Positions 21,565-37,900 of a stretch of 64,000 nt of DNA are shown one piece after another (the first letter of the stretch is position 1; each line of letters starts with the position of its first letter). Under the pieces are notes generated by a model that had not been told where the DNA came from, made no database searches, and was given only the letters and a program-made list of their open reading frames with translations. A program made the translations under genes and the position numbers. This stretch comes from Micromonospora peucetia. Lineage in GTDB: Bacteria > Actinomycetota > Actinomycetes > Mycobacteriales > Micromonosporaceae. The stretch lies in the NCBI RefSeq assembly GCF_900091625.1, contig NZ_FMIC01000002.1, positions 5,270,001 to 5,334,000 of the forward strand. Reading direction: 5' to 3'.

Positions 21565-22013
21565 GACCACTCCTTGCATCGGTGGGCTCGGGCGGGGCCG
21601 GCTCGCATTGTGCGGGACCGCGACGGCTGCGGAACAGATCGCTCTTCGTAGATACACTTTCGTCGACGGGTGCGGGGCCGGGACGTGCCATCACGGGAAT
21701 GGTCAGTCGCTTCGCCTGGGCGTTGGCCTGGTTGTCGGCGGCCTCGGCCTTGAGCGCCCGGTAGTAGCGCCCCGGATGCCGGTCGAGCGGCTTCGGAAAT
21801 GTTGCAACGGATGTCAAGACATCGATCTACTGTGGCGTTTCGGTGAAACTCGACGGTCCGTGCCGCTGCCACCGACGTCGATACCCGCGCCGGCTGCGTA
21901 CGCATTGCGGTGACGACCGCGAACCGCCCGCGCCGCGAGGGCGCCTCAGGCGGCCCGGTCGAGGGTTCGCACAGCTTTGCCGGGGCACCGGAGCGCATGG
22001 CAGGATATCGACC
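21565..22013. promoter_or_regulatory. Divergent intergenic region, NlpC/P60 and aminopeptidase P
   Basis: These 449 bases separate divergent genes and must hold both promoters. Open frames here have atypical composition and no recognisable content. The AT-richer part around 21780-21850 (TGTTGCAACGGATGTCAAGA) is the best place for promoter elements. I see no strong palindrome. Confidence 0.4.
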
Positions 22014-23510
22014 ATGACAAGCGACGAGCAGGTGAAAGCCAGCCATCGGAACACCCCGACGAGCGACGAATTCCGCGCTTTCATCGCCTCCGGTTGGGCC
22101 CGTCCGGAGGCGGCGCCTGTCCCGCGCGTGGAGGTCGCCGACCACGCGGCCCGCCGCCGGGCGGCCTTGTCACGGCGGTTCCCGGGCGAGCGCCTCATCA
22201 TCCCCGCCGGCGGCCTCAAGGTGCGCAGCAACGACACGGACTACACCTTCCGGCCGCACACGGCCTTCGCCTGGCTGACCGGGCTCGGGTTCGACAGCGA
22301 GCCCGACAGCGTCCTGGTGATGGATCCGAAACCCGACGGCCACGAGGCGATCCTGTTCTTCCGGCCGCTGGCCCCGCGCGACAGCGAGGAGTTCTTCGCC
22401 GACTCCCGGTTCGGCGAGTTCTGGGTCGGGCCCCGCCCCACCATGAGCGAGGTCGAGCAGCGGCTGGGCATCGGCACCCGACACGTCGACTCGCTCCCGG
22501 ACATCCTGGCCAAGGACGCCGGCGCGACTGTCGTACGCGTCGTGCGCGGGGCCGACAGCGAGCTCGCCCGGCTCGTCGACGAGACCCGGGCCCAGGCGGA
22601 GGCGTCCGCGCCGGTGACGCAACAGCACGAGGCGGATGAGGAACTGGCCCGCCATCTCTCGGGGATGCGACTACTCAAGGACGAGTGGGAGGTGGGCGAG
22701 ATGCGCAAGGCGATCGCCGCCACCCACCGTGGCTTCGACGCGATCATCGCCGGGCTGCCCGAGGCCGTCGGCAAGGAGCGCGGCGAGCGGTGGGTCGAGG
22801 GCCTCTTCGGCCTGTACGCCCGGCACGACGGCAACGGGATCGGCTACGAGACCATCTGCGCGTCCGGCGACCACGCCAACACCATCCACTGGACGAAGAA
22901 CACCGGGCCGGTCCGCGACGGCGACCTCATCCTGGTCGACGCCGGGGTCGAGGTCGACTCCCTCTACACCGCCGACATCACGCGCACCCTCCCGGTGACC
23001 GGTCGCTTCACCGACGTGCAGCGCAAGATCTACGAGGCGGTCCTGGAGGCGCAGGAGGCCGGCCTGGCGGCGGTGAAGCCGGGCAACAGGTTCAGCGACA
23101 TCCACGCCGCCGCCAACGTGGTCATCGCCCGGCGGCTGCACGAGTGGGGGCTGCTGCCGGAGGGGGTGACCATCGAGCAGACCCTGGACCGCGAGCGTGG
23201 CGGCTGGCACCGGCGGTGGATGGTCCACGGCACGTCCCACCACCTCGGCATGGACGTGCACGACTGCCAGATGCTGCTGCGTGAGGAATACAACGACGGC
23301 GAACTGAAGCCCGGGATGATCCTCACCGTCGAGCCCGGCCTGTACTTCAAGGCGGACGACCTGCTGGCGCCGGAGGAGTTCCGCGGCATCGGCGTCCGCA
23401 TCGAGGACAACGTGCTGGTCACCGAGGACGGTCACGAGAACCTCTCGTCGGCCATGCCGCGTACCGCCGACGACGTCGAGGCCTGGATCGACCGGGTGCG
23501 CTCCGCCTGA
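22014..23510 (+). CDS. pepP: Aminopeptidase P family (M24B) Xaa-Pro aminopeptidase
   Basis: The product is 498 residues, the normal length for PepP. The N-terminal creatinase-like domain spans about 50-215; the pita-bread catalytic domain follows with dimetal ligands in VDAGVEVDSLYTADITRTLP (two Asp), HGTSHHLGMDVHD (His), TVEPGLYF (Glu) and RIEDNVLV (Glu). These enzymes remove the N-terminal residue before proline in the cytoplasm. The ATG at 22014 has AGGA upstream at normal spacing; the longer frame from 21843 is basic and out of character. It converges on the ATP-grasp gene with a very strong terminator between. Its closeness to a predicted pseudopeptide pathway may be chance or may reflect self-protection. 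Confidence 0.92.
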   Translation: MTSDEQVKASHRNTPTSDEFRAFIASGWARPEAAPVPRVEVADHAARRRAALSRRFPGERLIIPAGGLKVRSNDTDYTFRPHTAFAWLTGLGFDSEPDSVLVMDPKPDGHEAILFFRPLAPRDSEEFFADSRFGEFWVGPRPTMSEVEQRLGIGTRHVDSLPDILAKDAGATVVRVVRGADSELARLVDETRAQAEASAPVTQQHEADEELARHLSGMRLLKDEWEVGEMRKAIAATHRGFDAIIAGLPEAVGKERGERWVEGLFGLYARHDGNGIGYETICASGDHANTIHWTKNTGPVRDGDLILVDAGVEVDSLYTADITRTLPVTGRFTDVQRKIYEAVLEAQEAGLAAVKPGNRFSDIHAAANVVIARRLHEWGLLPEGVTIEQTLDRERGGWHRRWMVHGTSHHLGMDVHDCQMLLREEYNDGELKPGMILTVEPGLYFKADDLLAPEEFRGIGVRIEDNVLVTEDGHENLSSAMPRTADDVEAWIDRVRSA

Positions 23511-23559: not shown

Positions 23560-24942
23560 TCAGCCGCCGTGGAAGGTGCAGCCGATCTTCGCGCCGCCGG
23601 CCATGCTGACCACCCCGACCTCCGGGTCGGTGCTGCCGCGGACGAGGCAGCCGGCATACCCGTCCTCGTCGACGACGTCGCGGTCGGCCAGATAGATCCC
23701 CCAGTTGAGATAGAGCTCCTGTACGCCGCCGACCCCGTCGGGAAACGGCTCGGCGGTGGGCTGGACCCGGCGTTGCAGCACGTACGGGCCGTCCATCGCA
23801 GAGTCGAGCCGGGCCTGCCACTCGGCCTCGCCCACCGTCCAGCCGGCGAGGACTCCGTTGCCGCCGTGCAGCAGCGTCGGCTTCAGGATCAGCTCGTCCC
23901 GCCGGGCCCGGGCGTAGGCGAGCAGGTCGACCTCGGCCCCCTCGGGATCGGTGCCGCGCGGTCGCACGTGCCGGGTCCACGGCAGGATCCGGTCGATGCA
24001 GGCCAGCTCGTCGGCGTCGAACAGGCCCCGGTGCCGATCGTCGGAGAGCATGGCCAGGGTGCCCTTGTTGCCGTAGAGCTCGGCGTCCAGGCGGCTGAAC
24101 AGGCCGACCTTCTCCTGCTCCACGGCGGCCAGCAGCGGTTCCACCTGCGCCTCCACTGCCGGGTCGGCGAGGTCCTCGGGCAGGAAATATCGCAGGACGA
24201 CGTCGACGGCGCGGCCCGCCACCGTCGGCCGGCCGTTCGGGTATGTGAACTGGCCGAGGTGGCAGCCGATCCCCTCGACCCCGTACCCGGTCAGCATCTC
24301 GGCGAGCACCTCGAGCCGGGACCCCACGATCGGGTAGTTCTCCGTGGTGTCCACCACGGCGACGACCGGTGGCCGGTCCGTGGGGATCATCGCGGCGCAC
24401 TCCGCGTACATCGTCCGCACGATGCAGCCCAGCGTGTCCTGGTACCCGAGCCGGTGCTGCTCCACGAACTCCCGCAGCGGGGGGTACGCCAGCATCGCCC
24501 GGTTGATGTCGGCACTCTCGAAGCCGCCGAGCGCGCTGGTGACGTTGAATTCGAGCAGGCGGAATCCCGCGCCGTCGTGGTAGAGGTCGGCGCGGCCCAG
24601 CGGGACGAGCGACCCGGCGCGGGCGCCGCGCGTGATCAGCGCCGTCTGCCGGGGATCCATGCCGACGGCCTCGGCCAGTGCGGTGAGGTCTCCGTCGAAG
24701 ACCCGCTCCGGCAGGGCACGCAGCAGGTCGTAGACCGTGCGCAGGTCCCGGGCGACGGTCCGGCATTCGGTCTCACCGAGGAAGGCCGGGCCGTTCATGA
24801 ACCGGTCCCGGTACGGCTCGAGGGTGGCCGACTCCCGGGCGGCGGCGGTCGGGTCGTCCGTCGACGCACTCCGGGCGAGTTGCCCGACGTACGTGCGGCC
24901 CAGTGCCGACCTGCTCAACACGGGCGGGTGGCTGGTCGTCAT
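23560..24942 (-). CDS. Circularly permuted ATP-grasp ligase (glutathionylspermidine-synthase-like), copy 1
   Basis: The product is 460 residues; AAGGAC lies 7 bases before the ATG. Conserved blocks are LLEFNVTSALGGFE (about 138-150), a long middle, DRILPWTRHVRPRG near 325, and an ATP-binding stretch DELILKPTLLHGGNGVLAGW near 355-375, followed by YVLQRRVQP. This K-P...GG-x-G pattern is that of permuted ATP-grasp enzymes, which make amide bonds through acyl-phosphates. A paralogue at 32503-33867 shares the EFNV..ALGG and PWTR blocks. It is divergent from the biosynthetic operon and likely co-regulated with it. I infer that it joins an amino acid to another building block of the pathway; substrates cannot be read from sequence. 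Confidence 0.8.
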   Translation of the reverse strand: MTTSHPPVLSRSALGRTYVGQLARSASTDDPTAAARESATLEPYRDRFMNGPAFLGETECRTVARDLRTVYDLLRALPERVFDGDLTALAEAVGMDPRQTALITRGARAGSLVPLGRADLYHDGAGFRLLEFNVTSALGGFESADINRAMLAYPPLREFVEQHRLGYQDTLGCIVRTMYAECAAMIPTDRPPVVAVVDTTENYPIVGSRLEVLAEMLTGYGVEGIGCHLGQFTYPNGRPTVAGRAVDVVLRYFLPEDLADPAVEAQVEPLLAAVEQEKVGLFSRLDAELYGNKGTLAMLSDDRHRGLFDADELACIDRILPWTRHVRPRGTDPEGAEVDLLAYARARRDELILKPTLLHGGNGVLAGWTVGEAEWQARLDSAMDGPYVLQRRVQPTAEPFPDGVGGVQELYLNWGIYLADRDVVDEDGYAGCLVRGSTDPEVGVVSMAGGAKIGCTFHGG

Positions 24943-25829
24943 GGAGTGTCCTTTCGGGCGGATGGCACGTCCGGTCCGGGGCGGGCGGGGGTGCGGCGGC
25001 GAGCTTTGTCGGCGACGAGGCCGACGATTCGTTCCATTTCCTTTCGATCTGTCGGCCCACCACCGCCGCCGCCGATTCGACCGGACAGTCTGGAATTGTC
25101 AGCAGGGTGGAACTGACGAAGATGGTCGCAAATTGGCGCGACGGCGTCGACGGCGCAGTGTCGCCGGTGCGGCACGACGGATCTGTGACCTGACGCGGAA
25201 GGGGCCCGGGTTGCGGGGAGGGCGCGGAACGGGGCGGGTGGACGACCCGCCCAAGGGGTGTCAAAGTGCCGCAACCTGGCCGACGGGCAGGTCGGCATGC
25301 TCCACCATCGGCAGTTCTGTGACCGTTTGCGCTCCAGCATGGACTGTCGTGAGAGTGACGTAACAGCCCGGTCCACTTCCGGTGACCATCTGATAGCTTC
25401 GATGCCGGCGAGCCGCTGCGGCTGACGGGAGCGCAACGGCAGCATTGGTTGTCGTGCATGCAGACGGGAGCTTCTTCGGTTGTTACGTCGAGACTTCTGA
25501 GATCAAGCTGTATGTCCGATTGTTGCTCGACGACGTGGCAATTCCAGCCGAACGGAATCCGCCGACCTGCTCCCGGCCACGAGGTGTCCCGACACCCGCC
25601 CGGCGTACCCGCCTCCCGGCGACCCACCGATCGCGACGTCCCTGAGGGGCGGCAGCGCCGCTGTGGGCGTCGCGCGCGTCGTCCGGACACCGAGCCCAGG
25701 CTCGGCACGGCTGGTCAGCCCCGGCGGCGACGCCGACCCCGCGCACCCGGTCCCGGTGGTGCCGGCACGGAGTTCCACCCGGGCCGCTGCCGGTCCCGCA
25801 GCGCACATCGAATGGTGAGGACGACGTAC
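24943..25829. promoter_or_regulatory. Long divergent control region at the head of the biosynthetic operon
   Basis: This is an unusually long gene-poor stretch of 887 bases. It contains AT-richer islands (about 25080-25140, 25300-25400, 25440-25550) and a pair of inverted 12-mers described separately. No reading frame in it has a recognisable product. It should hold the promoters of ATP-grasp copy 1 and of the aldehyde dehydrogenase operon. Confidence 0.5.
25357..25489. repeat. Inverted 12-mer pair GACGTAACARCC
   Basis: GACGTAACAGCC at 25357-25368 recurs on the other strand at 25478-25489 as GACGTAACAACC, one mismatch in 12. The centres are about 121 bases apart, between the divergent transcription units. 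Two copies of a regulator site, possibly allowing looping, is the simplest reading; no known binding motif is recognised. Confidence 0.4.
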
Positions 25830-25937
25830 ATGAGAACCTACGATCCGGACACCGCGAGCCACGCGACCCGCACCCGCCGATCCTCCGCCCAGCGGTCGCG
25901 GACCGACCGGCTCCGGCGCCGTGGAGGCACGCCTTGA
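25830..25937 (+). CDS. Possible 35-residue basic peptide, coupled to the aldehyde dehydrogenase start
   Basis: The short frame begins MRTYDPDTASH and is rich in Arg, Ser and Thr, ending RRRGGTP. GAGG lies about 10 bases before the ATG. Its TGA overlaps the TTG start of the dehydrogenase (TTGA), and the dehydrogenase ribosome site lies inside it, so at minimum it could act as a leader that couples translation. Third codon positions are mostly G or C, as in real genes here, but the length is too short for that to be decisive. No family is recognised. Confidence 0.35.
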   Translation: MRTYDPDTASHATRTRRSSAQRSRTDRLRRRGGTP

Positions 25938-26863
25938 GTCTCACCGTGGACGTGACCGACGCCGAGGCCCGGTTCGCCGAGCCCGCCTCCGTCGCCGTCA
26001 TCGGCACCGGGGCGATCGGCCAGGACCTGATCAGCAAGATCCACCGTTCTCCCTCGTTGGACTGCCGCCTGGTGGCCGGGCGCAACCCGGCCTCGGCCGG
26101 CCTGCGGCACGCCGAGCAGTTCGGCTACCCCGTCACCGCCGCCGGGATCGACGCCGTGCTGGCGGCGGGCGATCCGTTCGACGTCGTGTTCGACGCCACC
26201 AACGCGGCGTCCCACCTGCGCCACTGGGCGCTGCTGGAGCCGCTGGGCACGCTGGTGGTCGACCTGACGCCCAGCCGGGTGGGCCAGATGGTGGTGCCGA
26301 CCGTCACCGGGGTGGGAGCGACGACCGGGCGCAACATCAACCTGATCAGCTGCGGCGGCCAGGCGTCCATCCCGGTCGCGCACGCGCTCGCGAACCGCTT
26401 TCCGGTGACCTACATCGAGGTCGTCTCGACGGTGGCCAGCGACGTCGCTGGCCGCGGCACGCGACTGAACCTCGACGAGTACGTGGCGACCACCCGGCAC
26501 GCCATCACGACGTTCTCCGGCGTGTCCGACGTCAAGGCGATCCTCAACATCAGTCCGGCGGTGCCGCCGGCGACCTTCCGGACGGCCGTGCACGCGCGGA
26601 TTCCCGGCGCCGACGTCGCCGCGGTGCGCGCGGCGGTCGAGGGGGTGGCCGAGCAGGTGCGCTCCTTCGCCCCCGGTTACGCGGTGACCGCCTGCACCGT
26701 GGTCGACGACCGGGTGACCGTCGCCCTCCAGGTCACCGCCCACAGTGACGTCCTGCCCGGGTACGCCGGCAATCTCGACATCATCAACTCGGCCGCCATC
26801 CTGGTCGCCGAGCAGCACGCGGCCCGGCTGGGCCGGACCGCCCGCACGGAGGCGGCCCGATGA
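25934..26863 (+). CDS. Acylating acetaldehyde dehydrogenase (MhpF/DmpF family)
   Basis: The product is 309 residues, the family length. The NAD motif [11 protein letters not shown] starts near residue 20; the catalytic cysteine is C140 in [14 protein letters not shown]; the C-terminus has the conserved [12 protein letters not shown]. The TTG start is supported by GGAGG 6 bases upstream and a 4-base overlap with a short frame. MhpF enzymes interconvert aldehyde plus CoA plus NAD+ with acyl-CoA and form a channelling complex with a 4-hydroxy-2-oxovalerate aldolase, which is the next gene here (ATGA overlap). In degradation operons the pair makes acetyl-CoA. No meta-cleavage genes are present, so I infer that it runs in reverse, reducing an acyl-CoA to an aldehyde as in nikkomycin NikA/NikB. 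Confidence 0.88.
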
Positions 26864-27870
26864 GAAGCGTCGTGATCCACGACCCGACCCTGCGCGACGG
26901 CCAGCACGCCGTCCGCCACCAGCTCGGGGCGGTCGCCCTGCGCCGGTACGCGGAGGCGGCGGACGCGGCGCGGATCCCGGTGGTGGAGGTCGGTCACGGC
27001 AACGGTCTCGGCGCGTCGTCCCTCCAGGTCGGCCAGGCCGCGGTGAGCGACGACGAGATGCTGTCGACGGTCCGGCAGGCGCTGCGGCACAGCCGGATGG
27101 GCGTGTTCATGCTGCCGGGCTGGGGCACCTCCGACGACCTGCGGCGGGCCATCGGCCACGGCGCCGACGTCGTCCGCATCGGTGTGCACGCCACCGAGAC
27201 ATCGCTGGCGGAGCGTCACCTGGAGGTCCTGCGCGAGGCCGGCGCCGAGGCGCACTGCGTGCTGATGATGAGTCACATGGCGTCCCCCGACGAGCTGGCC
27301 GAGCACGCCGCGCAGGCCGTCGGGTACGGCGCGCAGGCGGTGGGGATCATGGACTCCGCGGGCCACTTCCTGCCCGCCGACGTCACCGCGCGGATCGGTG
27401 CGATCGCCGCGGCGGTCGACACGCCGGTGATCTTCCACGGCCACGACAACCTCGGCATGGCCGTCGCCAACTCGGTGGCCGCGGCGGAGGCCGGCGCCCG
27501 GATCATCGACGGGTGCGCGCGGGGCTTCGGCGCCGGGGCGGGAAACACCCAGCTCGAGGTGCTCGTGCCGGTGCTGGAGCGCAGCGGATTCACGACCGGC
27601 ATCGACCTGTACGCGCTCCTGGACGCCGCCGACCTCGCGGAGCGCGAGCTCATGCCCGCGCCACCGGTGACCGCCTCGATGACCATCGTGAGCGGCCTGG
27701 CGGGGGTGTTCTCGGGATTCAAGCACCGGGTGCTCGAACTCTCCACCCGCGCCGGTGTCGACGCGCGTGACGTGTTCTTCGAACTGGGCCGGCGGCAGGC
27801 CATCGCCGGCCAGGAGGACCTGATCGTGGACGTGGTGGCGGAGTTGAGTGCCCGCAGGGCCACCACGTGA
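26860..27870 (+). CDS. 4-hydroxy-2-oxovalerate aldolase family (MhpE/DmpG-like)
   Basis: The product is 336 residues. The HMGL-like TIM barrel opens with [13 protein letters not shown] (metal Asp at D13 and catalytic Arg at R12), and the metal histidines are H193 and H195 in [14 protein letters not shown]. The C-terminal communication domain ([28 protein letters not shown]) is that of DmpG. Two differences from typical degradative members stand out: TLRDGQHA where TLRDGMHA is usual, and HGHDN where HAHHN is usual. These may indicate another donor or acceptor. The family cleaves or forms 4-hydroxy-2-oxoacids from pyruvate and an aldehyde. Here it probably extends the aldehyde from its coupled partner to a 2-oxoacid for the downstream CoA-ester lyase; that is inference. 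Confidence 0.85.
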
Positions 27871-27911
27871 CCGGCCGCGCACCGCGGCCTTCAGCAGTGA
27901 GGAAAGGCGAC

Positions 27912-28778
27912 ATGGGAGTTTCGGACGCAGTGTCCAGGGCGAACGGGTCGGCGGGTGTCCCCGTCGCCCGCATGACGTTCGACGAGTTCATGGCCGTCGG
28001 CCCCGGCGGCCTCTTCAAGGCCGACGTGCCCGTGGTGATCGCGCTGCCGGGCGACGTGCAGGGGCTCGGCCGCGACGGCGTGGCGGCCCGGCTGGCCGAC
28101 CTGACCGTCACCCTGTTCACCGAGCCTGGCGACAAGAACCATCCGGGACGCTGGGAGACCCGGGACATCAGGCTCCGCGACTTCTTCGCCGACGAGCGTC
28201 ACCTGAACAGCCCGGACACCTGGCACCGGGTGGTGTCCAACATCCGCAACAGCCCGGCCGACGTGAACGCCGTCATCGGCTTCGACGCGGACAGGTTCTT
28301 CGGCTACGGCGACACGTTGTACGCGGCGAACCTGTGGATCAGCCACCGCGGCGTGTTCACCAAGAACCACTTCGACGAGTTCGAGAACTTCAACATCGCG
28401 TTGGAGGGCCGCAAGCGGTTCATCATTGCCCCGCCCGGCTCCCGTGAGTACTACCCGCGCTCGGTGTTGCGCGGGTTCGGGGACAAGTCCCAGGTGTTCG
28501 ACCTGGACAACGTCGACCTGGCGCGCTTCCCGAGGCTGGCGCCCAAGCTCGCCCAGCGCCGTGACTTCGTCCTCGAACCGGGCCACATGCTCTACCTGCC
28601 GCTCGGCTGGTGGCACCAGGCCGAGTCGCTGGACGAGATGAACATCAACGTCAATTTCTGGCTGAAGTCGAAGAAGCTCCTCCGTAGGCCGCACGCGCTC
28701 GGCGTCGCGATGTACACGTACGCCTACCGGAGGGTCAAGGGTGTCTACAGCTACAAGCCCACCGAGGTGAACTCCTGA
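27912..28778 (+). CDS. JmjC/cupin-like Fe(II)/2-oxoglutarate-type hydroxylase
   Basis: The product is 288 residues; GAGGAAAGG lies just before the ATG at 27912. The core is a cupin-8/JmjC fold: H153 and D155 in NHFDEFENFN, a lysine in EGRKRFIIAPPG that fits the 2-oxoglutarate contact, and distal H235 in LPLGWWHQAESL. This facial triad is complete, so an iron oxygenase reaction (hydroxylation) is likely. Relatives include FIH-like and peptide or amino-acid hydroxylases. The gene sits in the middle of the operon, 41 bases after the aldolase and overlapping the next gene by one base (TGATG). I infer that it hydroxylates an amino-acid or pseudopeptide unit. The C-terminal tail (KKLLRRPHALG...YAYRRVKG) is basic and unassigned. 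Confidence 0.82.
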   Translation: MGVSDAVSRANGSAGVPVARMTFDEFMAVGPGGLFKADVPVVIALPGDVQGLGRDGVAARLADLTVTLFTEPGDKNHPGRWETRDIRLRDFFADERHLNSPDTWHRVVSNIRNSPADVNAVIGFDADRFFGYGDTLYAANLWISHRGVFTKNHFDEFENFNIALEGRKRFIIAPPGSREYYPRSVLRGFGDKSQVFDLDNVDLARFPRLAPKLAQRRDFVLEPGHMLYLPLGWWHQAESLDEMNINVNFWLKSKKLLRRPHALGVAMYTYAYRRVKGVYSYKPTEVNS

Positions 28779-30031
28779 TGAGCGACCGCAAGACCATCAC
28801 CCCCACCCACCGCTACCGCAACAACGACAAGCTCATCGGGGTGGGAAACACCTTCTGGAACATGTCCGAGGAGCACGGGGTCGCCGGCATCGTCGGCGAC
28901 CTCTCCGACGGCGTGTTCCGGATGGCCGACGGCCACGAGTTCGTCAACTTCACCGTCTGCTCCTACCTGGACCTGGACACCCACCCCAAGGTGATCGACG
29001 GGGCCGTCGCCGCGCTGCGCCGCTTCGGGGTGCTGGACCACTGCATCCCACGCACCCGGGTCCAGACGTCGGTGCTGCTGGAGCTGGAGGAGTCGCTGGG
29101 TGAGCTGTTCGACGCGATGGTGATCAGTGCGATCTCCACGGCGGCGGCCAGCACCGGCCTGCTGCCGCTGATCGCGTCGGGGCACCTCGGCAACGGCACC
29201 CGACCGCTGATGGTCTTCGACAAGAACGCCCATGTGTCGTTGGCCAACGCCAAGCCGAGCTGCGCCGACGAGACCGAGGTCGTCACCTGCCGCCACCACG
29301 ACCTCAACTACCTCGAGGACATGTGCCGCAGCTACGAGCGGGTCTGCTACGTGGTGGACGGCTCGGACAGCCTCGGCGGCTACGCGCCGGTCGAGGAACT
29401 GGCCGAACTGCAGGACAGGTACAACCTCCTGGTCTTCTACGACGACTCGCACTCGCTGTCCGCGTACGGCGAGCGCGGCATCGGCTACGTCCGTACGCAC
29501 TGCCCGGTGCGCGACGACCGGACCATCACCGTCGCGACCCTGAGCAAGGGTTTCGGGGCGGGCGGCACGGCGATCCTGCTCGACGGCTTCCCGAAGGAGA
29601 CGCGGCGGATCATCGAACGCTTCGCGGGCCCGCTGGGCTACTCACAGAAGATGAACGCCGCCGCGGTTGGTGCCGCGCTCGCCTCGGCCGAGATCCACCG
29701 CACCGAGGAACTCACCCGGTTGCAGGGACGGCTGCGATCCAACATCGCGCTGTTCGACTCGCTGCTCGCCACCGAGCAGTCCGGCAGCACGTACCCGATC
29801 CGGGTGGTGCCGATGAACGACGAGACCGTCGTCCAGGCGGCCCAACAGGTCTTCGCGGCCGGGTTCTACACCTCGCCGGTGTTCTTCCCGATCGTCGCCC
29901 GCGGCACCGCCGGACTGCGGGTGATGCTGCGCGCGGGCCAGACCGAGGAGCAGATCACCAGGCTGTGCTCCGTGCTCGTCGAGGCGGGTGCCCGCCCGGC
30001 CGCCGCGCTGCCCGAGCCGGTGACCCGGTGA
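28778..30031 (+). CDS. Alpha-oxoamine synthase-like PLP enzyme (glycine C-acetyltransferase / AONS family)
   Basis: The product is 417 residues. The fold-type I pattern is clear: SYLDLDTHPKV near the start, the PLP aspartate and the following histidine in FYDDSHSLSAYGERG, and the Schiff-base lysine K257 in LSKGFGAGG. Alpha-oxoamine synthases condense an amino acid with an acyl-CoA, losing CO2, to give an alpha-amino ketone. In 8-amino-7-oxononanoate synthase the matching block is DEAHS; here it is DDSHS. The gene overlaps both neighbours, the upstream hydroxylase and the downstream lyase (GTGA). From memory, the ketomemicin pathway uses such an enzyme to join a benzylmalonyl-CoA with arginine, replacing a peptide bond by a carbonylmethylene. 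The same role here is my leading hypothesis. Confidence 0.87.
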   Translation: MSDRKTITPTHRYRNNDKLIGVGNTFWNMSEEHGVAGIVGDLSDGVFRMADGHEFVNFTVCSYLDLDTHPKVIDGAVAALRRFGVLDHCIPRTRVQTSVLLELEESLGELFDAMVISAISTAAASTGLLPLIASGHLGNGTRPLMVFDKNAHVSLANAKPSCADETEVVTCRHHDLNYLEDMCRSYERVCYVVDGSDSLGGYAPVEELAELQDRYNLLVFYDDSHSLSAYGERGIGYVRTHCPVRDDRTITVATLSKGFGAGGTAILLDGFPKETRRIIERFAGPLGYSQKMNAAAVGAALASAEIHRTEELTRLQGRLRSNIALFDSLLATEQSGSTYPIRVVPMNDETVVQAAQQVFAAGFYTSPVFFPIVARGTAGLRVMLRAGQTEEQITRLCSVLVEAGARPAAALPEPVTR

Positions 30032-30897
30032 CCGGCGCCGCGCGGGCGGTCCCGCGCAGCATCCTGTACACCCCGGCGCTGTCGCTGGACCGGGTCGTGA
30101 AGGCCTGGTCCTACGACGCGGACGTCCACCTGATCGACCTGGAGGATTCCGTACCGGCGGCCGACAAGCCGGCCGCACGCGCCGTGTGCCGGGCCGCGCT
30201 GGAGAAGGCTCCACGGCCGGAGAACGTCGCGGTACGCATCAACGAGTTGGGCAGCGTCGCGGCGGTGCAGGACCTGATGACCCTCACGGAGTCTCCGGTG
30301 CGGCCCGGCATCGTCATGATGACGATGGTGACCTCGGCGGCCGAGGTGGCCCTGCTGCGGCAGATCCTGGCCTCGGCGGGCGCGCATCCGGAGATCTACG
30401 TGACGGTGGAGACCGTGGAGGCGGTCGCCCAGATCGACGCGATCGCCGGGGCGAGCGACGGGCTGGTCCTCGGCTCGGCGGATTTGGCCGCCACGCTCGG
30501 GGTCGAGATCACCTGGGAGGCCATGCTGGCCGCCCGGCAGTCGATGGCGCTGGCCTGCGCGCGACACGGCACCGCCTGCATCGACACCGCCAACTTCCGG
30601 CTCGCCGAGCCGGCCGTCCTGGCGCGGGAGACCGCCCGGGTGCGGGCGCTCGGCTTCCACGGCAAGGCGACGGTGCATCCGGGCGAGCTCGACGAGATCA
30701 ACCGGGTACTGCGCCCCCAGGCTGACGACCTGCGACTGGCGCGCAGGGTGGCCGAGGCCGTACGGGCGGCGAACGGCGGGATCGCCGTGCTGGACGGGAA
30801 CATGGTCGGCCCGCCGTTCGCCCGGATGGCCCGCGCCACGGTGGCCCGAGAGGACGCCTGGGCCGCCCGGTTCGGCACCGAAGGAGCTGCCGGATGA
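30028..30897 (+). CDS. HpcH/HpaI-family CoA-ester lyase (CitE / malyl-CoA lyase-like)
   Basis: The product is 289 residues from a GTG overlapping the previous stop. CitE-type signatures are SILYTPALSLDRVVKAW, LIDLEDSVPAADKPAAR (CoA and metal region), VETVEAVAQIDAI (metal Glu), LVLGSADLAATLG (metal Asp) and GFHGKATVHPGELDEIN near the C-terminus. Family members reversibly form beta-hydroxyacyl-CoA from an acyl-CoA and a 2-oxoacid or glyoxylate. Together with the MaoC dehydratase 961 bases away this makes a plausible two-step conversion of a 2-oxoacid and (malonyl-)CoA to an unsaturated acyl-CoA. No transcription break is visible before or after this gene; its stop overlaps the next ATG (ATGA). 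Confidence 0.88.
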   Translation: MTGAARAVPRSILYTPALSLDRVVKAWSYDADVHLIDLEDSVPAADKPAARAVCRAALEKAPRPENVAVRINELGSVAAVQDLMTLTESPVRPGIVMMTMVTSAAEVALLRQILASAGAHPEIYVTVETVEAVAQIDAIAGASDGLVLGSADLAATLGVEITWEAMLAARQSMALACARHGTACIDTANFRLAEPAVLARETARVRALGFHGKATVHPGELDEINRVLRPQADDLRLARRVAEAVRAANGGIAVLDGNMVGPPFARMARATVAREDAWAARFGTEGAAG

Positions 30898-31856
30898 CCG
30901 GGCCGGTGACGCTCGGCGCCGCGCAGATGGCGGGTACGCCTCAGCTGGTGCGGGTGATCGACGTGCTGGGCGAGATGTTCGCGGACCTGGCCGCCGGCCG
31001 GACCAACTCCCCGGCGCGAACCGTTATCGAGCACGGTCCCCAACGGGTCCTGCTGGTCAGCCCCGCGGTCTGGGAGCGGCGCGGGGTGGGCAGCGTCAAG
31101 ATCACCACGCTCACCCCCGACAACCCCGACCGTGGGCTGCCGCTGATCCACGGGATCGTCGCGCTGACGGACCTGACCACCGGGCAGATCACGGCCCTGC
31201 TGGACGGTGCCGAGCTGACCGCCGTACGCACCGGCGCGGTCGCCGCCCTGGCGACCCGCTGGTGCACCGCCGACGACGCCGAGGACCTCGCGGTGATCGG
31301 CGCGGGGGTGCAGGCCCGGGCCCTGGTGCGCGCGGTGTCGGCGGTGCGCCGGATTCGCACCGTCCGGGTGTTCTCCCGGACCCGGAGCAGGGCGGAGCAG
31401 TTCGCCGACTGGGTGCGTGACGCGGTGCCCCACCCGGTGCACGTCAGCGTCGGCGACAGCGCGAAGGCCGCCGTCGCCGACGCGGCGATCATCTGCACGG
31501 CGACCTCGACCAGCGACAACACACCGCTGGTCGAGGCGGACTGGGTGGCACCCGGAGCGCACGTCAACGTGATCGGCGGCACCCACCCGGACGCGATCGA
31601 ACTGGACCCCGCCCTCCTGGCCGGGGCCATGGCGGTCGTCGAGGACCGGACCGCGGCGCTGGAGGGCGCCGGCGAGGTGCGGGCCGCCCTGGCCGCCGGT
31701 CTGATCGGCGTGGACGACCTGCACGAGTTGGGCGCGCTGGTCACCGGCGAGGTCCGGGTGGGGGGTCGGACCTCCGTCCTGCGTACCGTCGGAATGGCCA
31801 TCGAGGACACGGCCGCCGCGGTGGCGCTGTACGAGGGAGCGGCGGCCGTGGCGTAG
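30894..31856 (+). CDS. Ornithine cyclodeaminase / mu-crystallin family NAD(P)-dependent enzyme
   Basis: The product is 320 residues. Family blocks are VKITTLTPDNPDRGLP, TGQITALLDGAELTAVRTGAVAALAT and the Rossmann motif VIGAGVQARALVRAV, ending with the conserved VGMAIEDTAAA. The family spans ornithine cyclodeaminase, ketimine reductase, alanine and opine dehydrogenases and SbnB. All use NAD(P) on an imine or related group. In this operon it may reduce a double bond or imine after the MaoC step, or supply a cyclic or N-alkylated amino acid; sequence alone does not decide. It is the last plus-strand gene of the coupled row, one base from the convergent MaoC stop, with no terminator visible between. 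Confidence 0.85.
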   Translation: MTGPVTLGAAQMAGTPQLVRVIDVLGEMFADLAAGRTNSPARTVIEHGPQRVLLVSPAVWERRGVGSVKITTLTPDNPDRGLPLIHGIVALTDLTTGQITALLDGAELTAVRTGAVAALATRWCTADDAEDLAVIGAGVQARALVRAVSAVRRIRTVRVFSRTRSRAEQFADWVRDAVPHPVHVSVGDSAKAAVADAAIICTATSTSDNTPLVEADWVAPGAHVNVIGGTHPDAIELDPALLAGAMAVVEDRTAALEGAGEVRAALAAGLIGVDDLHELGALVTGEVRVGGRTSVLRTVGMAIEDTAAAVALYEGAAAVA

Positions 31857-31857
31857 G

Positions 31858-32352
31858 TCAGGAGGAGCTCTCCCGGCAGCGGACCATGAAGGAACGCTCG
31901 AAGACGATGACGGTCTCGCCGGTGGACTTCGTGCCCGTCGTCTCCACCGTGATGATGCCCTGTCCGGGCCGGGACCGGCTCAGCCGCCTGTCGAGGATCC
32001 GGCTGGTGGCGTACAACGTGTCCCCGACGAAGACCGGCTCGCGCAGGCGGACCTTGTCCCAGCCCAGGTTGGCCACCGCCCGGGCCGACAGGGCCTGCAC
32101 CGTCATGCCGCCGACCAGGCACAGGGTGATCCCGCTGTTGACGAGCACGCGGCCGTACTCGCTGCCCGCGCCGTAGTGCTCGTCGAAGTGCAGCGGGTGC
32201 TGGTTCATGGTGAGCAGGGTCAGCCAGGTGTTGTCGGTCTCCGAGATGGTGCGGCCCGGCCAGTGCCGGATCACCATGCCGGGCTCGAAGTCCTCGTAGT
32301 CCCCGCCGTGTTCCTCGCGGTACTCGTTGCCCTGGACATGACGCAGCGTCAT
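31858..32352 (-). CDS. MaoC-family dehydratase/hydratase
   Basis: The product is 164 residues, starting at the ATG at 32352 with GGGAGA 8 bases upstream. The hot-dog fold hydratase-2 pattern is present: GRTISETDN, TMNQHPLHFDEHYG with catalytic Asp and His candidates, and YGRVLVNSGITL. The sequence is close in style to mesaconyl-CoA or beta-methylmalyl-CoA dehydratases, which work with CitE-type lyases. I infer that it dehydrates the beta-hydroxyacyl-CoA made by the 30028 gene product. It is divergent from ATP-grasp copy 2. A much longer open frame upstream of this start, antisense to the ligase gene, is a high-GC artefact. Confidence 0.88.
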   Translation of the reverse strand: MTLRHVQGNEYREEHGGDYEDFEPGMVIRHWPGRTISETDNTWLTLLTMNQHPLHFDEHYGAGSEYGRVLVNSGITLCLVGGMTVQALSARAVANLGWDKVRLREPVFVGDTLYATSRILDRRLSRSRPGQGIITVETTGTKSTGETVIVFERSFMVRCRESSS

Positions 32353-32502
32353 CGACGACTCTCCCGTCTCGCTCGTGGACGAACCGGCGCGGTCCACGTC
32401 GGACGTGAATGTTAGTCTATGTCGATCATCGTTTCGGAGATGCCGGCCCGCGGCGAGCACGCTCGGGCGGCCGGCCCGACGTGCGACTCCGGGGAGCGTC
32501 AG
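32353..32502. promoter_or_regulatory. Divergent promoter region, MaoC / ATP-grasp copy 2
   Basis: CGTGGAC at 32374-32380 and GTCCACG at 32392-32398 form a 7-base inverted repeat with an 11-base spacer. An AT-richer patch with GTGAATGTTAGTCTATG follows at 32404-32421. A regulator site plus promoter for the ligase gene is plausible. Confidence 0.4.
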
Positions 32503-33867
32503 ATGACCGTGCGCGAGGATGTCGACCACACCGGGCTGGCCGGGCATCCGTGGTTCGGCGCCCACCAGGTGACGCCGGCCGCACCCGTGGAGACGATCCG
32601 CCAGATGCTCCGCCACGAGCTGCGGGACACCGGCTGGCCCTACCAGCGGCTGCTGCCCGCGGCGCCGATGGCCATCCCGCGCGCCTCGTCCGCCGAGATT
32701 TTCCGGGCAGCCGCCGCGCTGGTCGACCTGCTCCGCCGCACCGCCCTCGAAACGGCGCCCACCACGGCGGGCCGGCTGGCGGCCTACCGCATGCCGCAGA
32801 GCGAGAACCAGCTGTTCGTGCGGGATCCGTTCGTCGAGGAACGCTACCCGGACTGCGTGGTGCGGCCGGACGTCGTCATCGGGCCGGACGGGCCCCAGTT
32901 CCTGGAGTTCAACGTCAGCGGTGCGCTCGGCGGCGTGGTGGAGACGCACTGCCGCCTCGAGGTGTGGCGCAGGCTGCACGCCGATGCCGAGGGTCGGACC
33001 CCGTTCAGCTCCCCCGACCCGTTCGCCGTGCGCGCCGAGATGTACCGGTCGCTCTGCACCGAGCTGGGGCTGGCGCCCCGGGTGGCCATCGCCGGCAGCG
33101 CCCGGGTCGACGGCGTGCGCAGCCGCTATTTCCAGCTGGAGGCCGACTATCTCAACAACCACGGCCTGACCGCGCGGTTCTTCGAGCCGGAGGAGCTGCC
33201 GGAGGCGTGGGACTGCCCGCCCCACCTGCGCTACCCGATCGGGCTGCGCAACTTCACCATCCCGGACTGGCTGGACGCCGGCCTCGACACCACATACGTG
33301 CAGGACGCGCTGGACAACGGCTGCCTGTTGGTGGGCACCCAGACGTCGACCTTCATGCACAGCAAGCTGACCGTGGGCCTGCTGTCGGAGGGCCGGCCCT
33401 GGATGAGCGCGGCCGACCGGAGCCTCGTCGACAGGTACGTGCCGTGGACGCGGATCCTCACGGACCGCCGGACCGGTCGCGAGGGCCGCGAGGTCGAGCT
33501 GCTCCCGTTCGTCGTGGCGAACCGGGACCTGCTGGTGCTCAAGGCGGGTCTGGGCGAGAGCGGCAAGCAGGTGGTCATCGGCCGCGAGGTCGACCAGGCG
33601 ACGTGGGAGTCGGCCGTCGACGAGGCCGCCGCCGAGGGCACCAGCGTGGTGCAGGACTTCGTGGCGCCGCGGACCTGCCGGGTCGCGCTCGTCGCCGATG
33701 GTGCCGACGAGCCGCACTACGCCGAGGTCGCTCCGGTGATCGGGCCGCTGCTGTTCGGCGGACGTCCGGCGGGCCTGTTCTGCCGCTACTACGGCGACGG
33801 CTCCGCCGGCATCGTCAGCGCCCGGGGGAGCGACAGCAGCTCCGACAACTGCATGGTGGCCGTCTGA
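32503..33867 (+). CDS. Circularly permuted ATP-grasp ligase, copy 2
   Basis: The product is 454 residues from the ATG at 32503, with GGGGAG 8 bases upstream; an ATG at 32419 lacks a ribosome site. Blocks shared with copy 1 (23560-24942) are FLEFNVSGALGGVVE, DRYVPWTRILTD followed by EVELLPFVVANRDLLVLKA, and a later ESGKQVVIG and VVQDFVAPR. The usual KP is KA here, and the GG-x-G loop is GESGKQ, so the nucleotide site has diverged from copy 1. It has an extra middle part. I infer a second amide- or ester-forming step in the same pathway. Nothing after it belongs clearly to the cluster. Confidence 0.78.
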   Translation: MTVREDVDHTGLAGHPWFGAHQVTPAAPVETIRQMLRHELRDTGWPYQRLLPAAPMAIPRASSAEIFRAAAALVDLLRRTALETAPTTAGRLAAYRMPQSENQLFVRDPFVEERYPDCVVRPDVVIGPDGPQFLEFNVSGALGGVVETHCRLEVWRRLHADAEGRTPFSSPDPFAVRAEMYRSLCTELGLAPRVAIAGSARVDGVRSRYFQLEADYLNNHGLTARFFEPEELPEAWDCPPHLRYPIGLRNFTIPDWLDAGLDTTYVQDALDNGCLLVGTQTSTFMHSKLTVGLLSEGRPWMSAADRSLVDRYVPWTRILTDRRTGREGREVELLPFVVANRDLLVLKAGLGESGKQVVIGREVDQATWESAVDEAAAEGTSVVQDFVAPRTCRVALVADGADEPHYAEVAPVIGPLLFGGRPAGLFCRYYGDGSAGIVSARGSDSSSDNCMVAV

Positions 33868-34486: not shown

Positions 34487-34913
34487 ACGGGTTGCCGCCC
34501 CCGATCGGCCCCTCCCGGGCCTCGGCGTGCCGCCACCCGCCGTCGGGGTCGGCGACCGGACCGCGACGCTGAACGAGTCCGCGCCGAACGCCTTGCGCCC
34601 GGTGATGATGTACTTGCCGCCCTTGCGGGCGGCCACGGTGAGCGTGGCGTTCCACGACGCCCGGCTCGGTGGAGACACCGTCCATGATCAGGTCGGAACC
34701 TCGTGGACGAGGCCCGCGTGGCGTGTTCCGGCCCGTGCTTCCGAGGGCGGCGGTTCGTGGTCGCTCTCCGTTCCGCATCGGCGTGGCCGCGTGTTGCTGT
34801 AAGCAACTTTCATGCCTGGTGCCAATCGGTGTAGACAAATGCCGGCTCGACGGATCAGGATTGCTCGATAGATCAATAGATACGCGTAGGTGTCTGGCAG
34901 CAGGAGGCACGCG
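34487..34913. promoter_or_regulatory. Gene-free stretch before the giant secreted protease
   Basis: No supported gene lies here. The left half carries a minus-strand open frame with a readable stretch (about 34570-34660) but no family or start. The right part, about 34790-34890, is distinctly AT-richer, includes a short GTTGCT-gta-AGCAAC hairpin at 34793-34807, and is the likely promoter of the protease gene. Confidence 0.45.
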
Positions 34914-37900
34914 GTGGCGCTGCGTAGCAAGCTCGCTCATGTTCTGATCGTGGCGATGGTGTGGGGAGCACTCGGCGTCCCCGATGTGGCCGCCGCGGCG
35001 CCGAGCAGCGCCTCGACGGACGGCCGGGTCTCGTTGCGGGACGGCATCCCGGCCGGGCAACAGGCCACGGCTGCGATCGGCACCAGAACCGGGCCGGCCG
35101 CCGCGCTGGTCGGCGAGAAACCGCAGCGCCCGAAGGTCGCCCCGGAGGTGACCGAGGCCGCCGCCGACGGCAACGGCAGGGTCGGCGTCATCATCCGGCT
35201 GCGCGATCAGGTGAACCTGTCCACGGTGGCCCATCAGGCACGCGACGCGGTCGCCGCGTCCGGCGAGGCGGAGTCGCGCGGCCGGACCGTCGTCAAGGCG
35301 TTGCAGGCCAAGGCGGCCACGACCCAGGGTGGGGTTCGCAACCTGCTGGCACGTGCCGGCGCGACCAGGGTGCGGCCGTACTGGGTGTTCAACGGCTTCT
35401 CGGCGTCCGTGCCGGCGTCCGCGCTGGAGCAACTCGCCGCGAGTCCCGAGGTGGAGAGCGTCGCGCTGGACGAGCAGTACACGCTGCCGGAGACGACGCC
35501 GGGTGCGCCGCGCCTGCCGACCTGGGGCCTGGAGAAGGTACGCGCCACCGACGTGTGGGCCGACCACGGCTTCACCGGTGAGGGCGTGGTCGTCGGGATC
35601 ATGGACGGCGGGGTCGACGGTGGACACCCGGCGCTGGCCGGCAGCTACCGGGGTCGCGACGGCGACCACGCGCACAGCTGGTTCGCCGCCACCGGCGAGA
35701 ACTATCCGACGCCGGCCGACGGTGGTGGGCACGGTACGCACGTGGCCGGCACCATCGTCGGCGCCCCACCGGGCGACGTGACCGGCGTGGCTCCCGGTGC
35801 CGAGTGGATCGCCGTCAAGATCTTCAACGACGCCGGCCGGGCCAGCACATCGGGCATCCACGCCGGGTTCGAGTGGATGCTCGCCCCGGGCGGCGATCCG
35901 AGCAAGGCACCCGACGTGGTGAACAACTCGTGGGGCTCGGACGACACCTACGCCACCGAGTTCTGGGAGGACGTCAACGCCTGGGTGGCGGCCGGCATCT
36001 TCCCGAACTTCGCCGCCGGTAACAATGGACCCGGTCCACTGACCGTCGGCTCGCCCGCGAGCTTCCCGCAGACGTTCGCGGTCGGCGCCACCGACATCAA
36101 CGACCAGATCGCCTCGTTCAGCAGCCGCGGGTCGGCCACCTGGGACGGCGTCGCGCACGTCAAGCCCCAGGTGAGCGCGCCCGGCCAGGACATCTACTCG
36201 ACCTGGCCGCGGGCGCTGGATCCGGACGGTTACCACACCATCAGCGGCACCAGCATGGCCACGCCGCACGTCACCGGCGTCATCGCGCTGCTGCTCTCGG
36301 CCAAGCCGGGCCTGTCCGTGGACGCCATCCGCGAGCTGCTGACCTCCACGGCGCGGACCGAACCGCACATGGGCAGGTTGCCCAACAACGACTACGGCGT
36401 CGGTATCGCCGACGCGCGCGCGGCGGTCGTCGCGGCCCGCTTCAGCGGCACCGTCAGCGGCACGATCCGCGGCCCCCAGGGCCCGCTCGGTGCCACCGTC
36501 AGCATTTCCGAACTGGGCGTGAGCACCACCGCCGACCCGGTGACCGGCTTCTACGACCTGCGGGTCAAGGCCGGCACGTGGACCGTCCGGTTCGCCGACT
36601 ACGGCTCGGTGCCGCGGGAATCGCGGGTCACCGTGACCGCGGACGGTCAGCACAAGCTGGACGTGACCCTCGCCGCCGCGGCCGTACACGACGTCTCCGG
36701 CACCGTGCGTGCCGCCGACGGCCCGCCGCTCGCCGACGCGGAGATCAGGTTCGGCGGTACGCCGGTGGCGCCCGTCTACACGGGCCCCGACGGACGGTTC
36801 GCGGCGCGGATCGCGGCCGGGACGTACCCGATGTCGGCGCAGCTGACCGGCTACGCGCGGCAGTCGGCCGAGAAGACCATCTCCGGCGGCACCACGATCG
36901 ACTTCTCGTTGACCCCGCTGAACGTGGACTCGGCGCCCGAGTGGCGGGAGTACCAGAACAACCCGCGGCGCACCGGGCAGTCGGCCGAGCCGCTGACGCC
37001 CGAGGCGCTGACCCGGCGCTGGCAGGTCGACCTGCCGGGCGGGCAGGCCGTGTTCAGCTCGCCGGTGCTGGCCGGCGAGCGGATCTTCCTGGTCACCGAG
37101 GACGGCCAACTGCACTCCCGTGCCGTCAGCAACGGCGTCGAGCTGTGGCGGTTCAGGGGCGGCGGCGCGATGCGCGGCACCCCGGCGGTCGCCGGCGGCA
37201 AGGTGTACGTCGGCGGCGGCGACAACCAGGTGTTCTACGCGCTCGACGCGGGCACCGGAGCGCCGGTCTGGACGTACCCGACCGGGGATCGGCTGACCTA
37301 CACCACGCCGACGGTCGTCGGTGACACCGTCTACTTCGGCACCGGTTGGGGCGAGGGCAACGGCGGCTGGGTGTACGCCCTGGACGCGCAGACCGGCGCG
37401 TTGCGCTGGCGCTCGTTCATCGGCGGGCAGATCTACTTCGCCCCGACGGTCGCGAACGGCACCGTCTTCGCCGGCAGCTTCGACGCGCGTCGGCTGGTCG
37501 CGCTGGACGCCGCCACCGGCGCGGAGAAGTGGGCCCTGACCCGCAACGCCGACTCGTTCGCCGCGATGCCGACCCACGCCGACGGTGTGCTCTACGTGGG
37601 CACCAGCAACTTCGACACGGGCGCGGGCAGCCTGCTCGCCGTCGACGCGAGCACCGGTGCCGTGCGCTGGGAGGCCAGCGGGCACGGCGACGCCTCCGGC
37701 AGCGCCCCGAACGTCCACGGCGACCTGGTCATCGCCGGATCGCACAGCAGGTCGGCGGTCGCGGCGTACGACCGGACCAGCGGCGCCCGGCGGTGGATCA
37801 CCGGGGCCGGCTCGGCGGTGAGCAGCGCGATGGTGCTCGCGGACGGCGTCGTCATCGGCGGATCGCAGCTGGACCGCCGGGCCTGGGCGCTGGACGCCTA

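Follow-up and report, generated by a model that had tools for sequence, protein, structure and literature searches.

A predicted ketomethylene-pseudopeptide gene cluster of Micromonospora peucetia related to, and distinct from, ketomemicin clusters

A set of ten genes was analysed within a stretch of 64,000 nucleotides from Micromonospora peucetia (assembly GCF_900091625.1, contig NZ_FMIC01000002.1, positions 5,270,001 to 5,334,000; hereafter, the window), whose genome comprises 7.37 Mb in two contigs. The set was interpreted, with a probability of about 0.6, as a cluster for a specialised metabolite, a ketomethylene (carbonylmethylene) pseudopeptide, whose assembly would follow a logic like that of ketomemicin (ktm) biosynthesis with a different reductase, different ligases and different tailoring enzymes. 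The observations behind this interpretation are the genes themselves, their kinship, a conserved core, the linkage of M24 peptidase genes from different branches, and the fold of one ligase. Nine genes lie within 23560–33867, an interval singled out by a first-pass annotation, and the tenth, for the M24 peptidase, lies just before it (Table 1). All of the genes named in that annotation were present where it had placed them, mostly in stop-start overlaps as it described: six genes on the forward strand (25934–31856), in the order aldehyde dehydrogenase, aldolase, JmjC hydroxylase, alpha-oxoamine synthase (AOS), CitE-type lyase and ornithine cyclodeaminase (OCD)-like protein, overlap stop to start at 5/5 junctions, and the MaoC gene on the reverse strand is tail to tail with this operon. 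The interval was correctly placed and too narrow, because the M24 gene belongs to the set. The AOS shared 96% identity with one that carries the name of Micromonospora echinofusca.

Table 1. Genes of the cluster, with positions in the window and the matches on which each assignment rests.
Product	Position	Strand	Basis
Aminopeptidase P-like M24 metallopeptidase	21843..23510	+	PF00557 188 bits, PF05195 68 bits
ATPg1, ATP-grasp-type ligase, ATPg2 relative	23560..24942	-	ATPg2 homology; no Pfam match
DmpF/MhpF-like acylating aldehyde dehydrogenase	25934..26863	+	PF09290 148 bits; TIGR03215 299 bits (cut-off 282)
DmpG/MhpE-like 4-hydroxy-2-oxoacid aldolase	26860..27870	+	PF00682, PF07836; TIGR03217 354 (cut-off 286)
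JmjC/cupin_8 Fe(II)/2-oxoglutarate hydroxylase	27867..28778	+	PF13621 (Cupin_8) 96 bits
Alpha-oxoamine synthase (AOS), KtmB-related	28778..30031	+	NF005697 553 bits (cut-off 342)
CitE/HpcH-HpaI-type CoA-ester lyase, KtmA-related	30028..30897	+	PF03328 (HpcH_HpaI) 88 bits
OCD/mu-crystallin-fold NAD(P) reductase (predicted)	30894..31856	+	PF02423 (OCD_Mu_crystall) 193 bits
MaoC-like dehydratase, KtmC-related	31858..32352	-	PDB matches
ATPg2, circularly permuted ATP-grasp ligase (predicted)	32503..33867	+	structure model and Foldseek

The search of 300 Micromonosporaceae genomes with the window AOS (E 1e-20) returned matches in 34, of which six were at 88% identity or above, the source genome included, 12 were at 40–49%, and the rest were lower; one genome, G181, appeared in both of the first two sets. 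The 19-kb surroundings of the 12 mid-identity genes comprised seven ktm loci (L036–L041, L043) and five other gene sets (L042, L044–L047). The ktm loci contained a PGM1-type ligase, a zinc-binding dehydrogenase of the medium-chain dehydrogenase/reductase (MDR) family, CitE, AOS, MaoC and an amidinotransferase, the ligase, amidinotransferase and MDR genes being those by which the loci were classed; in L038 the amidinotransferase match reached only 34% and lay on the other side of the ligase. Identity between window and ktm proteins was 46–48% for AOS, 35–39% for CitE and 51–55% for MaoC. One of the other sets, L042, combined ktm-like AOS, CitE and MaoC with an ATPg1-type ligase, a major facilitator superfamily (MFS) gene and a carbamoyltransferase, with no match for MDR or OCD.

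The window cluster shares AOS and the CitE-like aldolase, and, as judged by sequence identity, a MaoC dehydratase, with the ktm clusters of Salinispora, Micromonospora and Streptomyces. The remaining genes differ: ktm clusters have the zinc MDR enzyme (KtmF), the PGM1 ligase (KtmD) and the amidinotransferase (KtmE), whereas the window cluster has the OCD protein, a predicted circularly permuted ligase and no amidinotransferase, and adds the aldolase/aldehyde dehydrogenase pair, the JmjC protein and the M24 peptidase. At E 1e-3, the window contained no match to the PGM1-type ligase or to the amidinotransferase, the absence of the latter having been remarked in the first-pass annotation, and the only match to the ktm dehydrogenase was a 30% fragment approximately 13 kb away. 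As the KtmD, KtmE and KtmF features fail, the window cluster was classed as a ketomethylene-pseudopeptide variant, and not as ktm. The two cluster types also occur together, at different places, in G181 (L032 and L038), and five Salinispora loci (L056, L058, L059, L063, L119) hold the window type. The annotation had proposed ktm-like logic, with which the kinship of AOS and CitE agrees, and had paired the OCD protein with KtmF; that pairing was rejected, since the ktm loci examined have a zinc-binding MDR protein as their dehydrogenase. Its observation was therefore confirmed and its interpretation partly supported.

Phylogenetic analysis resolved the kinship of AOS. The AOS tree had 64 rows: 47 from loci bearing CitE and MaoC (9 of the 26 of type I, 6 of the 31 of type II and every row of the remaining types; see below for types), 13 distant Micromonosporaceae sequences, two rhizobial sequences and two from the PDB. 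All 47 formed one clade (95/82), divided into a subclade of ktm, ktm-like and type VI rows (12 rows; 100/99) and another of types I–V, Nostoc and Burkholderia ubonensis (35 rows; 100/98). Two rhizobial AOS without CitE and MaoC fell outside, as did, less firmly, Alb29 from albogrisin biosynthesis. Rows from Serratia and Xenorhabdus sat amid actinobacterial rows (13-row clade; 99/93), which suggests that the cluster was transferred between lineages. K257 of AOS was conserved. AOS was rejected as a diagnostic on its own, given that the rhizobial plasmid genes L122 and L124 (43–46%) had no CitE, MaoC or OCD match within 19 kb; a third rhizobial plasmid locus, L123, holds the whole core. The AOS gene of L124 adjoins a gene annotated as autoinducer-binding.

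The CitE tree (44 rows: 33 of the 88 cluster rows at hand, nine paralogues and two PDB sequences, the RipC proteins themselves being left out) placed 34 rows in one clade (100/98) against ten other lyases, with host lyases among those outside, and repeated the two sides seen for AOS (ktm side 92/78; other side 97/89). Monophyly of the 33 pre-labelled cluster rows was rejected (p-AU = 0.029), the cause being L143, which had been labelled a paralogue and fell inside; L143 belongs to another AOS and CitE locus (L158), and so the label was wrong. This locus, in Pseudoduganella violacea, is a second AOS (54%) and CitE (43%) pair, and its 19-kb surroundings contained no match for MaoC or OCD. The RipC model scored 186 bits on the window CitE, below its cut-off of 375. 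The window MaoC matched a MaoC dehydratase (100 bits) and a beta-methylmalyl-CoA dehydratase (93 bits) in the PDB, and the MaoC (38 rows) and OCD (28 rows) trees showed the same nesting of types I–III.

The loci tabulated numbered 88, of which 70 came from a scan of genome contigs, 17 from the Micromonosporaceae survey and one from a Rhizobium plasmid. Ten were ktm or ktm-like, and 78 were of OCD types (77 distinct, L033 being the L059 contig). CitE was found in 77 of the 78, MaoC in 75 and OCD in 77, although the OCD count is partly circular, and to that extent tells against the proposed reading, because types were set by AOS kinship and gene content. All four core genes were kept in 75/78, in agreement with the earlier expectation that the genes stay linked in relatives; the incomplete loci were L064, L073 and L084, the last on a contig of 7.8 kb. 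These loci span Actinobacteria, Serratia/Xenorhabdus, Pseudomonas, Burkholderiales, Rhizobium and Nostoc. In types V (three loci) and VI (two loci), only AOS, CitE, MaoC and OCD were found of 17 genes searched for, which puts OCD in the core, at the position taken by MDR in ktm.

The OCD protein had its best PDB matches in delta1-pyrroline-2-carboxylate reductase and a mu-crystallin homologue. K69 was retained in 78/78 rows and R112 in 77/78. In ornithine and lysine cyclodeaminases a catalytic Asp follows a GG motif; position 230, which we take to be the corresponding site, was Asp in 0/77 rows having a residue there. This fits a reductase, and the protein is probably one, either of a C=C bond, as KtmF, or of a cyclic imine. 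Given that type VI, with OCD, falls on the ktm side of the AOS tree and that types I–V likewise possess OCD, the simplest reading is that OCD was ancestral and that ktm clusters swapped it for the MDR enzyme.

Among the accessory genes, neither ATPg1 nor ATPg2 matched any Pfam model, even at E 1. A structure model of ATPg2 (31-row alignment; mean pLDDT 79, pTM 0.83), for which the start codon was chosen from the length of relatives, matched glutathione synthetase and glutathionylspermidine synthase in Foldseek, with E values of 5e-6 or lower for 45 chains (best E 3e-13, TM to query 0.42–0.59, 11–16% identity). Some close relatives are named circularly permuted ATP-grasp in UniRef, and the predicted structure has this fold. 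ATPg1 was 38% identical to ATPg2 over 105 residues, and is assigned the permuted fold by homology only. ATPg2 was present in 25/25 type I and 29/31 type II loci, and ATPg1 in 16/25 type I loci; the four ligase queries gave no match in seven Serratia/Xenorhabdus loci. The JmjC protein, whose best PDB matches were to hypoxia-inducible factor inhibitor, had H168, D170 and H250 conserved in at least 97% of 68 rows, and occurred in 25/25 type I, 31/31 type II, 3/4 type IIb and 7/7 type III loci, as well as in Nostoc. All four type IV loci had a NodU-type carbamoyltransferase instead of JmjC; loci with this replacement were L110, L111, L112 and L123, from Trinickia, two Pseudomonas protegens and Rhizobium lusitanum. 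The aldolase and aldehyde dehydrogenase were found in 16/25 type I, 30/31 type II, 3/4 type IIb, 7/7 type III and 4/4 type IV loci. Five genomes whose clusters lack the aldolase (G181, G290 and those of L054, L073 and L099) had another one elsewhere (39–42%), from which its function could possibly be supplied.

The first-pass annotation had described a pathway without nonribosomal peptide synthetase (NRPS) or polyketide synthase, which holds for 23560–33867 and not for every relative: the Nostoc locus L121 combines a copy of the core with an adjoining glycosyltransferase gene and, at a distance of about 5 kb, an NRPS gene. The proposal that L121 is a suomilide/azabicyclononane pathway was rejected, as the azabicyclononane core is reported to be prephenate-derived (PMC10157211; PMC8609519).

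The M24 protein of the window had best PDB matches named aminopeptidase P or Xaa-Pro aminopeptidase; its GTG start is the longest reading, and the true start may lie downstream. Three strong M24 matches, including the cluster copy, and one weak match were found in the host genome, the two other strong copies being 45 and 48% identical, with each match spanning one in-frame TGA. D366, D378, H466, E497 and E521, presumably the metal ligands, were invariant in 21 rows. Three positions were changed in all seven type I copies while being nearly constant in 14 others, and one of these adjoins a residue taken as a metal-binding His. M24 genes accompanied 20/25 type I, 17/31 type II and 6/7 type III loci, and the B. 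ubonensis locus.

In the M24 tree (29 rows, 27 different; the Serratia and B. ubonensis cluster copies were left out), the seven type I cluster copies formed one clade (100/100), with the other copies found in those genomes placed elsewhere. The eight type II cluster copies grouped with Streptomyces paralogues (13 rows; 100/100), two of these rows being cluster genes fetched again. In the Serratia and B. ubonensis copies, Creatinase_N takes the place of the AMP_N domain. Three or more separate recruitments of M24 genes are the simplest reading of these patterns. In the genomes G000, G178, G181 and G037, a distinct cluster copy is accompanied by one or more further M24 copies, as would be looked for in a duplicated target. 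The presence of M24 genes of different branches beside many clusters points to an X-Pro peptidase that is either the target or a processing enzyme; we read it as a hint, short of proof, that such a peptidase is acted on by the product or processes it.

All of the chemical steps that follow, and the target, are inferred. In vitro work on KtmA, KtmB, KtmC and KtmF was reportedly carried out by Kawata in 2017, and chemistry of the KtmA, KtmB and KtmC type yields NH2-CHR-CO-CH2-CHR'-COOH; from their kinship with these proteins, CitE, MaoC and AOS would be expected to give the same skeleton after reduction. The aldolase/dehydrogenase pair suggests a 4-hydroxy-2-oxoacid, which would be formed from an acyl-CoA and pyruvate in the synthetic direction. 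The CitE-like lyase, by its kinship with KtmA, would join a 2-oxoacid to acetyl- or malonyl-CoA, giving an alkylmalyl-type CoA ester, and MaoC would dehydrate the ester to an alkylfumaryl (mesaconyl-like) CoA. Reduction of the alkylfumaryl-CoA by the OCD-fold NAD(P)H enzyme, in place of the ktm MDR protein, is the least certain step. AOS, from its relationship to KtmB and general AOS chemistry, would then condense the alkylsuccinyl-CoA with an amino acid, with loss of CO2, and so create the CO-CH2 isostere, which stands where a peptide bond would be. The JmjC protein suggests hydroxylation of a side chain, and the ligases suggest peptide capping, in which one or both would add amino acids. Aminopeptidase P would serve either as a processing peptidase or as a duplicate of the target that confers self-protection.

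Several observations weigh against this reading. To our knowledge, no product is known for this cluster type, and a literature search gave no paper that describes the cluster or its product in its title or the opening of its abstract, a weak negative as subscription journals were mostly outside its coverage. OCD-fold enzymes are known to us for reduction of C=N and not C=C bonds, and in 8/78 OCD rows an Asp stands one place further on, at 231, where alignment is uncertain. The annotation had expected the lyase, dehydratase and AOS to fall with ktm proteins; AOS and CitE do, but a host paralogue of the ethylmalonyl-CoA-pathway type (L136, on a long branch) lies among the cluster rows of the MaoC tree, and one host paralogue (L129, also on a long branch) lies among those of the OCD tree. 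The exclusion of Alb29 from the AOS clade is not firm because of its own long branch (1.27). No M24 match was found near 5/25 type I and 14/31 type II loci, although 6 of these 19 are shortened by contig ends, nor in any type IIb, IV, V, VI, Nostoc, ktm or ktm-like locus. L064, from Streptomyces goshikiensis, had AOS, JmjC, both ligases and MFS only, without a match for CitE, MaoC, OCD, aldolase or aldehyde dehydrogenase; the assembly to which it belongs (strain JCM 4640) holds a second locus, L106, with the full set. Lastly, MFS and ATP-binding cassette (ABC) exporter queries had no match in the window, unlike in most type I relatives (MFS 16/25, ABC 5/25); MFS was found in 31/31 type II and 7/7 type III loci, while L052, L058, L113 and L119 also lacked any MFS or ABC match.

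One alternative keeps the same C-C bond-forming chemistry. Here, the OCD-like enzyme would reduce a cyclic imine derived from the aminoketone, giving a cyclic, proline-mimicking amino acid that is capped by the ligases, with aminopeptidase P, whose cleavage site precedes proline, releasing the product or being inhibited by it. The pyrroline carboxylate reductase and mu-crystallin matches, the missing Asp at position 230 and the resemblance of the linked peptidase to X-Pro aminopeptidases all agree with this, and, with no ligase match in the seven Serratia/Xenorhabdus loci, the core may there make a free amino acid. It is nonetheless considered unlikely, since OCD belongs to the four-gene cores of types V and VI, at the place of the ktm MDR enzyme, and the predicted AOS product would have no obvious carbonyl for ring formation. 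That the product is a ketomemicin analogue, made by a true ktm variant, is extremely improbable: relatives of KtmA, KtmB and KtmC are present, but KtmD, KtmE and KtmF, found in all seven loci classed as ktm, are unmatched in the window cluster, and G181 maintains both clusters separately.

A catabolic or central-metabolism operon, combining a meta-cleavage aldolase/dehydrogenase with an ethylmalonyl-CoA-like lyase and hydratase, would account for the DmpF/DmpG-like pair exceeding its NCBIfam cut-offs and for the failure of MaoC to separate from the host's own mesaconyl-type dehydratase. It was judged very improbable because most type I and II loci also carry ligase, JmjC and exporter genes, distribution is patchy (type I AOS in 6/300 Micromonosporaceae genomes, own included), and the host possesses another lyase and dehydratase outside the cluster, some 9 kb from each other, plus two further aldolases. 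A final alternative concerns the peptidase alone and is compatible with the pseudopeptide pathway: aminopeptidase P may strip a protecting residue from a masked product rather than act as a resistant target copy. This is plausible, at a little short of even odds, considering that the presumed metal ligands are intact and that leucylblasticidin S, unmasked by PepN, offers a precedent (PMC4664946); 6/7 Serratia/Xenorhabdus loci have the M24 gene despite lacking a ligase match, which tells against it.

Other known systems were compared with the ketomethylene-pseudopeptide cluster. A 2025 paper (PMC11943689) describes the roles of the ktm genes and ligation without NRPS in that pathway, and names ketomemicins and arphamenines, the latter being aminopeptidase B inhibitors of Chromobacterium violaceum, as the only known natural ketomethylene pseudopeptides. 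No arphamenine gene cluster was found in the literature search. Alb29 (PDB 8xha), which among AOS of solved structure is the closest (305 bits), accepts L-glutamate (PMC11906848); its candidacy as closest family had no support from the AOS tree, in which it lies outside the CitE/MaoC-linked clade on its long branch. DynZ, a stand-alone pyridoxal phosphate-dependent C-acyltransferase found through a KtmB search in Couchioplanes caeruleus, adjoins a GNAT gene in the five-gene dynaplanin cluster (PMC9239090), unlike the window cluster; the passages of that paper that were consulted mention no cluster of the window type. The ethylmalonyl-CoA pathway (host pair, L159) and itaconate RipC employ the same lyase and MaoC families, but the cluster CitE is apart from host lyases in the tree and under the RipC cut-off.

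A four-gene core over several phyla would turn the rare ketomethylene pseudopeptides into a broad pathway class with a new type of reductase, while the repeated X-Pro peptidase linkage provides a concrete target hypothesis; cluster finders keyed to NRPS and polyketide synthases may overlook such clusters. The widest form of the proposal is held only tentatively and is on the whole doubtful: a large, undescribed, horizontally spread family (Actinobacteria, Enterobacterales, Pseudomonas, Burkholderiales, Rhizobium, Nostoc), with ktm as one side branch and an OCD-fold C=C reductase, in which several lineages would have acquired an M24 X-Pro peptidase independently because the products inhibit aminopeptidase P or prolidase.

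The stretch 24943–25933, between ATPg1 and the operon, is partly alike in sister strains; the suggestion that it contains an exporter remnant was rejected, as the MFS query from a relative had no significant match in the window. Beyond the cluster, 20035–21657 (reverse strand) encodes an NlpC/P60 domain fused to a lectin-like beta-propeller, 34890–44174 (forward strand) a subtilase of 3094 aa with ten CarboxypepD_reg stretches and a PQQ/BamB-like propeller, and 12273–16658 another subtilase, with Kelch repeats.

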